Shown: positions 11,812-15,468 of the stretch, piece after piece
Layout: each line of letters begins with the position of its first letter
How positions within the stretch are numbered: the first letter of the stretch is position 1
Source: a virus
DNA length: 31,678 nucleotides
Strand: one strand, 5' to 3'
Virus record (IMG/VR): IMGVR_UViG_3300008339_000291
Coordinates: 1-31,678 of that record
Notes under the pieces: model-generated
Told to the model about the DNA's origin: nothing
Seen by the model: only the letters and a program-made list of their open reading frames with translations
Database searches by the model: none
Position numbers and translations under genes: made by a program

Positions 11812-12000
11812 TTAATCTTTGTTTTTACCAAGCGCGATTGTGTCATCGCCTTTGGTGACCGTAACGTTACCATCTGTAACATCGACCCGCATCGGCTCTT
11901 TCTGGTCCAGCCGGTCAATCAGGTTTTGGATCACCTGAAACTCCGGCTTTTCCTGCTTGGCTGCGGTCCCCTTCCTGAGCACGTATCGAACTATGTGCAT
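11812..12000 (-). CDS. small hypothetical protein
   Basis: The product has 62 residues from ATG 12000, with no evident ribosome binding site. It is mixed basic/acidic, with VIQNLIDRLDQK followed by a strand-like MRVDVTDGNVTV and a K/D-rich end. It is the first minus-strand gene after the plus-strand regulator region, so its own promoter may lie in 12001-12150. I do not recognise a family. Coding is supported only by frame, size and dense spacing with its neighbours. Confidence 0.55.
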   Translation of the reverse strand: MHIVRYVLRKGTAAKQEKPEFQVIQNLIDRLDQKEPMRVDVTDGNVTVTKGDDTIALGKNKD

Positions 12001-12091
12001 AGCGCCGGAAGCAGAAATCCTAAGGATGTTACAGGAAGTCCACGAGATGCGTCTGGCCGCATAGGCCGGAATCTAAGTGTTTAGTCTATGG

Positions 12092-12120
12092 TTGACCCGC
12101 TTTAGGGAATGCTGTAAAGT
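12092..12120 (+). promoter_or_regulatory. sigma-70-type promoter for the XRE regulator
   Basis: TTGACC at 12092-12097 (five of six match to TTGACA), a 17-bp spacer, and TAAAGT at 12115-12120 (four of six match to TATAAT). This lies 36 nt before the regulator ATG. It is on the plus strand, against the direction of every other gene here. Confidence 0.55.
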
Positions 12121-12126
12121 GACACC

Positions 12127-12137
12127 TAATCAGATTA
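12127..12137. promoter_or_regulatory. 11-bp palindrome, candidate operator
   Basis: TAATC-A-GATTA is a perfect inverted repeat lying between the -10 box and the ribosome binding site of the regulator gene, where an autorepressor would block transcription. A second, looser inverted repeat, CTAA-N4-TTAG, lies at 12073-12084 just upstream of the -35 box, and ATCCT-A-AGGAT at 12017-12027. The sites are not alike, so a shared operator is unproven. Confidence 0.35.
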
Positions 12138-12155
12138 CAGAAATGGGGGAAGAAG

Positions 12156-12506
12156 ATGGGCGATAAAGAGCAGTTCGGGGCGTTCATCCGGCGCAAGCGG
12201 GAGGAGAAGGAACTCGGTCTGCGGGAGATGGCGAAGAAAATCGGGATCAGCCCGACCTACCTGTCCAAATGCGAGCGAGACGAGTTTCCGCCACCCGCCG
12301 AGGACAGGGTGCGGGCAATCGCAAAGGAACTCGGTTGCGATGTTGACGACCTGCTGGCAAGGGCGGGTCGGGTGTCCAGCGACATTTCGGACATCATCAA
12401 GCGTCACCCAGTGCAACTGGCCGCGCTGCTGAGGACCACGAAGGGCATGTCGGCCGATGACATCAATCGGCTGGCCAGTGAGGCGGAAAAGGTAAAGAAA
12501 AGGTAA
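12156..12506 (+). CDS. XRE-family helix-turn-helix transcriptional regulator
   Basis: The protein has 116 residues from ATG 12156; the nearby earlier ATG at 12143 is out of frame and closed. GGGGA lies about 6 nt upstream. The N-terminal helix FGAFIRRKREEKELGLREMAK leads into the HTH with MAKKIGISPTYLSKCERDEFPPP; the rest is helical, ending in a basic tail VKKR. It resembles Cro/CI-type regulators in the subgroup with a LREMAxxIGxSPTYLSKxERxExPPP core. It is the only plus-strand gene in the window. It has its own promoter and a possible operator, so self-regulation is likely. Its coding region overlaps, antisense, the 3' end of the minus-strand membrane gene at 12404-12781. It looks like a moron inserted in the virion operon; whether it acts in lysogeny is unknown. 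Confidence 0.92.
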   Translation: MGDKEQFGAFIRRKREEKELGLREMAKKIGISPTYLSKCERDEFPPPAEDRVRAIAKELGCDVDDLLARAGRVSSDISDIIKRHPVQLAALLRTTKGMSADDINRLASEAEKVKKR

Positions 12507-12781
12507 CGGCCCAGGCTGCCCGTAATGCCGGTGAGTATGCCGATCAGCGCCATCGCGGCTGTGGATACCAACCCCACAACCGGCGTCAGCGCCTCAGCCG
12601 GCAAAATAGTTGCTGCAAACACGCCAACACACACCAAAAACACAATAAGCAAGATCCCATACTTGCCGATGAATTTGCTGGCGACCTCTTTAGCAGACGC
12701 CTGCGCCTCAATCAGCTTGATCTGGTCCTCGACCTTTGGTGTGTCGTCCACGTTAAAGCCAGGGCGGCGGGAGCGCCGCAT
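12404..12781 (-). CDS. small membrane protein; C-terminus encoded antisense to the regulator
   Basis: The product has 125 residues from ATG 12781; a TTG at 12805 would add eight residues. Positions 1-30 are polar (RPGFNVDDTPKVEDQIKLIE), then two membrane helices follow: about 42-60 (GILLIVFLVCVGVFAATIL) and about 66-86 (TPVVGLVSTAAMALIGILTG). Residues from about 92 onward (S/A/L-rich with LFFTFSASLAS) are encoded by the complementary strand of the XRE gene and do not look like a natural membrane-protein end. A shorter ancestral gene probably stopped near 12506 and was extended when the XRE gene was inserted. A holin- or spanin-like role is possible because of nearby lysis genes but is not shown. 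Confidence 0.65.
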   Translation of the reverse strand: MRRSRRPGFNVDDTPKVEDQIKLIEAQASAKEVASKFIGKYGILLIVFLVCVGVFAATILPAEALTPVVGLVSTAAMALIGILTGITGSLGRYLFFTFSASLASRLMSSADMPFVVLSSAASCTG

Positions 12782-13076
12782 CAACAGGGTTTTTCTGAAG
12801 GTCAATTTGACTCGCCAATCCGGCTGTCATCGAATCAATCTGCTCCTGCCCCAGCGCCTCAACCACCCAGCCCTGTACCTGCTGCGGAGTCAGTTGATCG
12901 TAAGGCGTAAAGTCACCAGTCGGCGCCGGGACTGCAACGCTGCCGTACACGCTAGCGTTGTAGTCCCCATCGGATGCGGCATAGACCCAATTAACCATAA
13001 ACACTACATTCGTCAGGCCATCTTCCATCAACTTGACGTCCAGTACCGGAAAACTCCACGAATAAACGATTGTCAT
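12753..13076 (-). CDS. conserved small structural-type protein (DUF7936-like)
   Basis: The product has 107 residues from ATG 13076 with AAGGAG 8 nt upstream. It starts MTIVYSWSFPVLDVK, followed by strands with VVFMVNWVYAAS and GSVAVPAP, then the helical FTPYDQLTPQQVQGWVVEALG and a Pro-rich end. This pattern, with FxPYDQLTxxQVxGW, is common in small phage proteins next to fibre genes, which I recall as DUF7936. It follows the two large fibre genes, so fibre attachment or chaperoning is possible but unproven. Confidence 0.75.
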   Translation of the reverse strand: MTIVYSWSFPVLDVKLMEDGLTNVVFMVNWVYAASDGDYNASVYGSVAVPAPTGDFTPYDQLTPQQVQGWVVEALGQEQIDSMTAGLASQIDLQKNPVDAALPPPWL

Positions 13077-13086
13077 ATTGTGCTCC

Positions 13087-15468
13087 TTAGCTTGTGACTG
13101 CCTTGATTACTGCGAAGTTGAATACCGGCTGCTCTGTCGTCGTGCCGCCAGTCGTCGCAAAAGTGATTCTAAAACTACCCGCCGCCACCGCAGTCACGTG
13201 AATCATGTACAGATCGGTGCCGGACTTTTGACAGACCTTTACCACGTCCGTTGCAGCAACCTTGTTGTTGGTCACCGTGAACGATTGCCATGTAGCCGTA
13301 CCGGCTGCGCTGACCAGCGTGATAGCGCCGTTGGTCTTGTCCAAGGTCACGCCGGTTGTGCGCGAGGTTGTCTGTGTTACCGCGCCGCCTGAGCCTGTGC
13401 CGTAGCCTAGACCGCCCGTGCTGGTCACCAAAACGTCGCCGGTCGAAGTGATCGATAACCGCTCGGTGTTATCGGTGCCTATGGCTACCACGCCTGGATA
13501 GTTATTCCATAACCGTACAGCAGAGCTGTAAAACCCTACATAGCCATAAGCAGCGGCGTTTGATGGGTTGCGCATGTAGATAATCGCGCCGGGGGACCCC
13601 ACCGTCCCAACCATGTCAATCGCGTATCCCCAACCTAGCGTGTTGGTTGGCGATGAGGTTCCAATCCCAAGGTTTCCAGCGGTGCTAATCGTTGCCTTGA
13701 CCGAGTTATTGGTAATGAAGTTCAGATTGTGGTTGGTGTAGGACCCAATGTGAGGCACGTTGCTAAGCAACTGAAGCCGCAGATACCCAGTGCCATCGGT
13801 CACATCAACATACGCGTTGGCAGGACCCGTGAATCGCGCAACAGCTGTGGATGCGGTGGAAACATCTAGCCGATATGATGGGGATGCAGTACCAATGCCG
13901 ACGTTGCCCGCAAAATATCCGTTACCGTATACGTTCATCTGTACGCCGGTAGCCGCACCGTTGCCGTCTCTAAAATTAACGGTTCCAAGGTCAAGATACG
14001 TCGTGCTCCCGGCGCCCCCTAAGTTTCGAATAGCGCGAGTATCATTGAGATAGTACGAAACGCCGCCAGTGCCGGACGATCTAATTGGGCCGTCAACATC
14101 TAGTTTGTATGTAGGCGATGCAGTACCAATGCCGACGTTGCCCGACGAGTCAATCCGCATGCGCTCTGATGCGCCGGTTAGCCAAGCCCAATAATTGCTT
14201 CCGCCATCGTAGAATTGTCGAATGTTGGCTTGCCCGTCAGACAGGACGATGTAGTTACTAGCGGTACGAATATCCAACCCGCCCGAGTTGCCAGTGTAGG
14301 ACCCAAGGATGACGTTGTGACTTCCTGTGGTAATCGCGCTGCCGGACAAATATCCAAGAAATGTACTCTGGCCGCCTGTGGTGACCGCGTAGCCCGCCTG
14401 ATAACCGAGCGCTGTGTTGCTATAGCCGCTTGTGCTTGAGTAGAGCGACTCTCTACCGATTGCGACGCTTAAAGTTCCGGTAGACGTTCCAGACGCGCCG
14501 CGTAATGCGTTAAGCCCCAACGAGTCATTGCTTCCGCCTGTTTGATAGAATTGCGACTGGTAGCCAAGCGCAACACTAGATCCACCAGTGCTGTTTGAAT
14601 AGAGCGCCTGACGACCCACCGCAACCTGATTACCGCCACTTGTATTGCTGTACAACGCAAGTGCGCCAAGCGCGGTGTTGTTGCCGCCGCCGAGGTTCGA
14701 ATACATGGCCTGAGAACCGACCGCCACATTGACTGCACCAGTTGTGTTGGTCAGCAGAGCTGCTTGTCCAATTGCGGTATTTGACGCCCCGGTTGTATTC
14801 AGCGCAGCTTGATATCCGACCGCTGTATTGTTTGCTGCCGTGCTGACAGCGGCAAGGGCACTCGCCCCGACCGCAGTATTCAAAGAGCCCGTCGTGTTTG
14901 CCGCCAACGCACTTGCGCCAACTGCGGTGTTAGATGCCACCGCACCAGCACCACGGCCTACCGTGATCCCATAAACGGTCAAATCAGTGCCGCTATAAAG
15001 CAGGTTTGCGCTGTCTTGCAGCAAGCCAGAGGCGCCTGCATACGTTACCCGGCCCGACGTCAAAGACGACAATTGCAACGATGCCCCTGCCACCGTGCCC
15101 GTGAGCGTGGGGCTTGCCGCACGCACTACGTTGCCCGTACCCGTGCTCGACACCCACTCCGGTGCAGTCGCACCAGCATTGACTTGCAACACCTGGGCGG
15201 CAGTGCCGAGGCTGAGGAACGTCGTTGTGCTTGCGCCGGATTGATACGGCACTGAACCTGCCGAACCGCCTGAGAGGTTGGTGGCGGTGGTGCCGCCGCT
15301 TGATGCGTCAGCAATCACAAAAACGTTGCCACTGTTGTCTTTGGCGTAGAGCTTTTTGTCGGTGATGTTGATTGCCAACTCGCCATTGACCAGATTGCCG
15401 GCCGTGGGGGCCGCCGAGGCGGTTGTGCTGTAATACAACGAGATTGGGGTGTAACCCGTTTGTGCCAT
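13087..15468 (-). CDS. large tail fibre / adhesin with YadA-head-like repeats
   Basis: The protein has 793 residues. I take ATG 15468 as the start because GAGGG precedes it by 7 nt; an upstream ATG at 15585 would overlap the previous gene by 107 nt with a basic leader foreign to fibres. The N-terminal region has LYYSTTASAAPTAGNLVNGELAINITDKKLYAKDN, a common fibre-start pattern. Residues about 166-458 hold YadA/Hep_Hag-like repeats with NTAxGxxAL and xAIGRESLYS. Two or three repeats with GNxGIGTxSPxxxLDV follow. The final 90 residues have VTLDKTNGAITL and FAVIKAV, a frequent fibre C-terminal domain that I recall well. No S74 chaperone domain is seen. Receptor binding is the probable role. It is adjacent to a sister fibre. 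Confidence 0.88.
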   Translation of the reverse strand: MAQTGYTPISLYYSTTASAAPTAGNLVNGELAINITDKKLYAKDNSGNVFVIADASSGGTTATNLSGGSAGSVPYQSGASTTTFLSLGTAAQVLQVNAGATAPEWVSSTGTGNVVRAASPTLTGTVAGASLQLSSLTSGRVTYAGASGLLQDSANLLYSGTDLTVYGITVGRGAGAVASNTAVGASALAANTTGSLNTAVGASALAAVSTAANNTAVGYQAALNTTGASNTAIGQAALLTNTTGAVNVAVGSQAMYSNLGGGNNTALGALALYSNTSGGNQVAVGRQALYSNSTGGSSVALGYQSQFYQTGGSNDSLGLNALRGASGTSTGTLSVAIGRESLYSSTSGYSNTALGYQAGYAVTTGGQSTFLGYLSGSAITTGSHNVILGSYTGNSGGLDIRTASNYIVLSDGQANIRQFYDGGSNYWAWLTGASERMRIDSSGNVGIGTASPTYKLDVDGPIRSSGTGGVSYYLNDTRAIRNLGGAGSTTYLDLGTVNFRDGNGAATGVQMNVYGNGYFAGNVGIGTASPSYRLDVSTASTAVARFTGPANAYVDVTDGTGYLRLQLLSNVPHIGSYTNHNLNFITNNSVKATISTAGNLGIGTSSPTNTLGWGYAIDMVGTVGSPGAIIYMRNPSNAAAYGYVGFYSSAVRLWNNYPGVVAIGTDNTERLSITSTGDVLVTSTGGLGYGTGSGGAVTQTTSRTTGVTLDKTNGAITLVSAAGTATWQSFTVTNNKVAATDVVKVCQKSGTDLYMIHVTAVAAGSFRITFATTGGTTTEQPVFNFAVIKAVTS
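14095..14970 (-). repeat. YadA-head-like repeat module, copy A
   Basis: Inside the 793-residue fibre; begins near VGRGAGAVASNTAVGASAL and ends near GNVGIGTASPTYKLDV. It matches the second copy at 15515-16350 over most of its length at both protein and DNA level, but contains one additional NTAIGxxAL repeat of about 17 residues. Confidence 0.75.

Follow-up and report, generated by a model that had tools for sequence, protein, structure and literature searches.

The window, that is, the whole stretch of DNA analysed here, is a complete IMG/VR virus record of 31,678 bases which is classed as linear and is probably a fragment. On the basis of the list of open reading frames and of homology it carries 32 leftward genes that are phage late genes and, as the earlier note had claimed, a single convincing plus-strand gene, an XRE regulator. 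The capsid protein is 89.5% identical to that of MW202545 (57 kb) and 77% identical to those of the Caulobacter phages RW, GB2A, RLK, and KcrB (62 kb); in MW202545 and phage RW every annotated gene from the tail/lysis region to the capsid runs leftward. The XRE product is a helix-turn-helix repressor of the Cro/CI type (Pfam HTH_31, E = 1.6e-11) that matches capH (2e-9, PADLOC) and has SinR and an immunity repressor among its nearest solved relatives. The features of the locus are listed in Table 1.

Table 1. Features of the XRE locus and of the interrupted phage gene (positions in the window).
Feature	Position	Strand	Basis
Split phage gene, C-terminal part	11812-12000	-	Homology of relatives begins at residue 11; uninterrupted gene in L166
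Left junction GCGG-T-CCCC, where phage meets attachment core (element TGGCT-CCCC)	11967-11971	+	L166, L207 and element ends
Insert, left (attL) end of a serine-recombinase integrative element, ~545-549 bp	about 11968-12516		blastn to L207; gap in L166 homology
Remnant coding PFLSTYRTMCIAPEAEILRMLQEVHEMRLAA-stop, detached C-terminal tail of the recombinase	11969-12064	+	In-frame continuity in L236; element comparison
Predicted operator half-site TGTTTAG	12078-12084	+	Conserved across homologous loci
Promoter TTGACC-17-TAAAGT	12092-12120	+	Sequence; position conserved in homologues
Predicted operator half-site CTAATCA (consensus CTAAACA)	12126-12132	+	Conserved across homologous loci
Ribosome-binding site GGGGGAAG	12145-12152	+	Sequence
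XRE regulator, ImmR/CapH-like, 116 residues	12156-12506	+	Pfam HTH_31; PADLOC capH; 91% identity to L207
Split phage gene, N-terminal part with both hydrophobic segments	12404-12805	-	Homology of relatives ends at residue 97; L166 nearly identical
Right junction AGGCT-G, core-like remnant followed by phage GCCCGTAATG	12513-12518	+	L166 empty site; element right ends; weaker than left

The XRE gene is located in an insert that interrupts one late gene. A relative, L166 (IMGVR_UViG_3300017780_003662; 64,879 bases), aligns to window positions 12517-13411 and 11837-11971 with about 90% DNA identity and has an uninterrupted gene between the matching blocks, homology ending at 11971 and restarting at 12517; XRE is absent from the whole 64.9-kb contig. 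The counterparts of the two gene parts also form one uninterrupted protein in L055, L087, and L088. A homologue of the split gene occurs in 45 loci, one of which is cut by its own contig end; in all 44 informative loci, where one alignment runs across the break point, it is uninterrupted. Among viral contigs the exact 23-base sequence of the empty site is present in L166 only, the collection searches having used exact peptide or DNA patterns, which miss diverged relatives. In the window the N-terminal part has a new 36-residue end, as its final 36 codons are antisense XRE sequence, and the C-terminal part opens with about 10 insert-derived codons at an ATG that lacks a good ribosome-binding site. 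An intron was considered as the identity of the insert and rejected (no Rfam match; XRE antisense to the split gene).

The product of the interrupted gene has a charged C-terminus as well as two hydrophobic segments, and its match to a holin family falls short of the threshold (E = 0.0038). The homologous gene directly precedes the holin in L055, L087, and L088; the gene is called holin-like and lysis-adjacent here. Since its N-terminal half is nearly identical to that of L166 (dS 0.027), the insertion is probably recent, and selection on XRE within the phage is not readable from the sequence. The halves of the split gene diverge from L166 to different degrees (dS 0.45 for 11812-11970 vs 0.027 for 12517-12805), which suggests that a recombination boundary coincides with the insert or lies close to it.

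These comparisons leave next to no room for XRE as a core regulator that this group of phages has long possessed. Homologues (86-88%) do occur in two small contigs of related phages (L002 2432-3049 and L003 2267-2887), but there the gene belongs to an early plus-strand operon (exonuclease-like, SSB, NinB) and is fused in frame to a YbcO nuclease domain; no relative of the XRE protein is encoded in the 50,697 phage records searched or in the L166 contig, and the empty site in L166 contradicts this reading. A core gene free of signs of insertion would have refuted the earlier note; the comparison with related phages, which lack the gene and expose clear signs of insertion, marks it as a foreign regulator. 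The SSB-like gene of L002 (387-836) contains an internal repeat of ~165 bp that is missing from the near-identical L003.

The insert corresponds to one end of a bacterial integrative element. Window positions 11967-12510 align end to end (82%, blastn) with L207, a betaproteobacterial MAG contig, and the family to which this sequence belongs is found mainly in alphaproteobacteria; no XRE matches were found in plasmid records. The reading frame of XRE is unbroken and, compared with L207, strongly conserved (dN/dS 0.057), a value that reflects mostly bacterial history. Synonymous divergence between the two copies is high (dS 0.83), so that L207 is probably not the exact donor. Several of the compared loci are short MAG contigs, and the searched set may lack sequences closely related to the window.

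Three elements were read through (~16–18 kb; a locus of the family is, e.g., L260 653-16332) and have the same order: XRE, an M78 peptidase, a toprim protein, type I restriction genes and a 530-residue serine recombinase. In the Kordiimonadales copy all genes point in one direction. The M78 (ImmA/CapP-like) peptidase lies directly downstream of XRE in 38 of 43 bacterial loci and is recognized as Peptidase_M78 (Pfam) and capP (5e-18, PADLOC). Many of these peptidases (L207 1230-1997 and homologues) have the motif HEGGGH, one residue longer than the usual HExxH zinc motif. In the window no M78 (ImmA/IrrE/CapP) peptidase adjoins XRE, which is at most the orphan of a repressor/M78 pair; the statement of the earlier note that a partner gene is missing holds for this DNA; the donor family does have the partner, which has been lost here.

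Homology among 31 loci begins abruptly at TGGCT, with unrelated flanks outside. In most of 20 genomes with the recombinase, that of L207 among them, the end of the recombinase gene passes into TGGCT, behind which lies a tRNA gene of mostly Gln- or Asn-like type; TGGCT(CCCC) is therefore read as the attachment core. In L236 (3546-3900) the recombinase and the left-end tail are contiguous and in frame, and the left-end peptide (consensus WLPFLNTYRTMCLAPEPDFRRVLEDVRELRLAA) would be the C-terminus of the recombinase in the excised form. The attachment core thus appears to lie inside the recombinase gene, and integration would detach a conserved C-terminal tail of ~33 residues ending in LAA (L260, L236, L288-L310). 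Such an ending is degron-like. No plasmid matches were found for the 33-residue tail, and no published description of an element family with its core inside the recombinase gene was found in the papers searched. A tRNA or tmRNA at the left end of the elements, proposed for its T-arm-like look, was discarded (ARAGORN gave none there and Rfam none in the eight loci scanned).

The insert is identified as the left end of such an element also because it retains the remnant of the recombinase tail, and this end occupies the attL position of the family. The window contains no recombinase or other element genes elsewhere and only one of the two attachment ends; the insert is a relic of a serine-recombinase element and not a member of the family.

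On the plus strand the empty site reads TTGGCTGCGGT-GCCCGTAATG, the left side of the insert TTGGCTGCGGT-CCCCTTCCTG, the right side CCCAGGCT-GCCCGTAATG and the element core TGGCT-CCCCTTCCTG. Both junctions would fit one crossover after T, the left one strongly and the right one less firmly, as GGCT is all that the latter keeps of the core (expected by chance in about 1 of 64 cases). Serine integrases normally require an identical central dinucleotide. Of the 9 nt of the core the phage site shares only 5, and for this reason an illegitimate recombination event with host DNA at the microhomology TCCCC/TGCCC, independent of the recombinase and with an accidental coincidence at the element end, is a serious rival as to the route of arrival, not the origin, of the fragment. 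The presence of a single element end and the weakly diagnostic right junction are also compatible with it. We regard it as possible but the less probable route, considering that the left junction falls, in 545 bp, within a few bases of the attachment core, that one crossover point accounts for both junctions, and that the left end is cut at this position in an unrelated phage contig too.

An assembly chimera of phage and bacterial reads is very improbable: the contig is metagenomic and its left-junction sequence is present in no other viral contig (near-identical records are possibly outside the searched set), but the phage flanks meet at consecutive positions of one gene and the element side begins at its natural end, both of which would be unexpected in a chimera.

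The unrelated phage is represented by the contigs L004 and L005, in which the element left end, 99% identical to the bacterial copy L230, is cut at the core and adjoins lysis and tail genes. Internal deletions have joined M78 to HsdR, followed by a piece of HsdM. In L004 (5472-7437) this gives an M78/HsdR gene fusion and an HsdM fragment, with an exact tandem duplication of 123 bp at the right edge. An empty site for the L004 phage was not found, nor were close relatives. The repressor family is seen in three phage settings (the window; L004/L005; and L002/L003, fused to YbcO).

Upstream of XRE is the promoter described in the earlier note, with boxes at 12092-12097 (TTGACC) and 12115-12120 (TAAAGT) and a 17-nt spacer. 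The match taken alone is at chance level (1 found vs 1.4 expected from shuffles); its conserved position and the inverted pair TGTTTAG/CTAAACA that flanks it in 40 of 46 loci, compared with 1.1% of control windows (random windows from the same loci; up to 2 mismatches in 14 allowed), make it more than a chance match. The spacing of the pair is mostly 48–58 bases. The palindrome that had been noted between the -10 box and the start is probably TAATCAGATTA (12127-12137); in its exact form it is not conserved (L207 has CTAATCAGATGAC instead) and was rejected as the operator, the conserved signal being the two half-sites in Table 1. An RNA hairpin before the XRE start was also discarded (z-score +0.53, no structure). 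Each of three full elements has one TGTTTAG/CTAAACA pair, located at the XRE promoter, which fits a repressor that governs the promoter heading the element, in the manner of ImmR in ICEBs1 (PMC8960796). Autorepression of XRE through these operators is the most likely form of control judging from the sequence; any benefit of the gene to the phage is putative.

The same evidence speaks against the proposal that XRE is a phage regulator which slows the lysis operon by antisense transcription as well as by DNA binding. The gene is convergent with this operon and no plus-strand terminator-like sites were found between 11000 and 13500, including the region downstream of XRE, as the proposal would favour. 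Antisense interference by the XRE transcript is possible, and nothing points to its usefulness. A role in the timing of lysis nonetheless finds no support and is very improbable: the insert is absent from the relatives examined and unique to this phage among them, it brought its promoter and operators along from the bacterial element, the window has no other operator pair than XRE's own, and the insertion broke a lysis-adjacent gene.

The explanation that we consider highly probable is that XRE represents the left end of a bacterial integrative element which inserted into a phage late gene and of which nearly everything else was deleted, and that it is probably a self-repressing orphan repressor of the ImmR/CapH type. 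Elements of the donor family sit at a tRNA gene through their serine recombinase, with repressor and M78 peptidase at the left end (as in ImmR/ImmA and CapH/CapP), upstream of the type I restriction genes and the recombinase. It would have arrived site-specifically in the late gene, and a later deletion would have removed the element from M78 to just before the right core. What the phage retains is the last ~30 recombinase codons, the repressor, and the repressor's promoter between the two predicted operator half-sites; the peptidase and all that follows it are lost. The repressor would bind its own two half-sites and shut its own promoter, giving a low level of product that would stay uncleaved without the peptidase. 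The main visible effects in the phage are the splitting of the holin-like gene and possible antisense transcription.

This arrangement resembles several known systems. Phage morons are extra genes with their own promoter located between phage genes. XRE is likewise an additional gene with its own promoter among late genes; unlike a moron it does not lie between two intact genes, as the insert splits one gene, and it has a recognizable element end. CapH/CapP are regulators of CBASS. The repressor and the donor-family peptidase match capH and capP and a defence locus lies downstream; in contrast to CBASS, the cargo is type I restriction, and cleavage of the repressor is putative. The ImmR/ImmA pair of ICEBs1 (PMC8960796) is similar in that an XRE repressor followed by an M78 metallopeptidase controls an integrative element, and differs from the present case, in which the peptidase is lost, the repressor resides in a phage and the parent elements, which depend on a serine recombinase, have type I restriction genes as cargo. 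In mycobacteriophage BPs the attachment site is inside the repressor gene, and integration removes an ssrA-like C-terminal tail (PMC4557955). The element family shares with this integration-dependent immunity an intragenic attachment site and the removal of a C-terminal tail of ~33 residues, but the gene involved is the recombinase and not the repressor, and the role of the tail is putative.

With an integrative-element end inside a phage late gene and its empty site known, the gain of a host regulator can be traced nearly to the base. The window has also pointed to a family of elements in which the recombinase gene itself seems to contain the attachment site. That phages acquire the peptidase-free repressor as an anti-defence factor acting in trans against restriction-bearing elements is doubtful; if this were true, the uncleaved phage copy would repress the one XRE promoter that a resident element has, and the co-oriented restriction genes and recombinase behind this promoter would be silenced too. 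The use by phages of orphan CapH/ImmR-type repressors against restriction-bearing elements thereby becomes testable.
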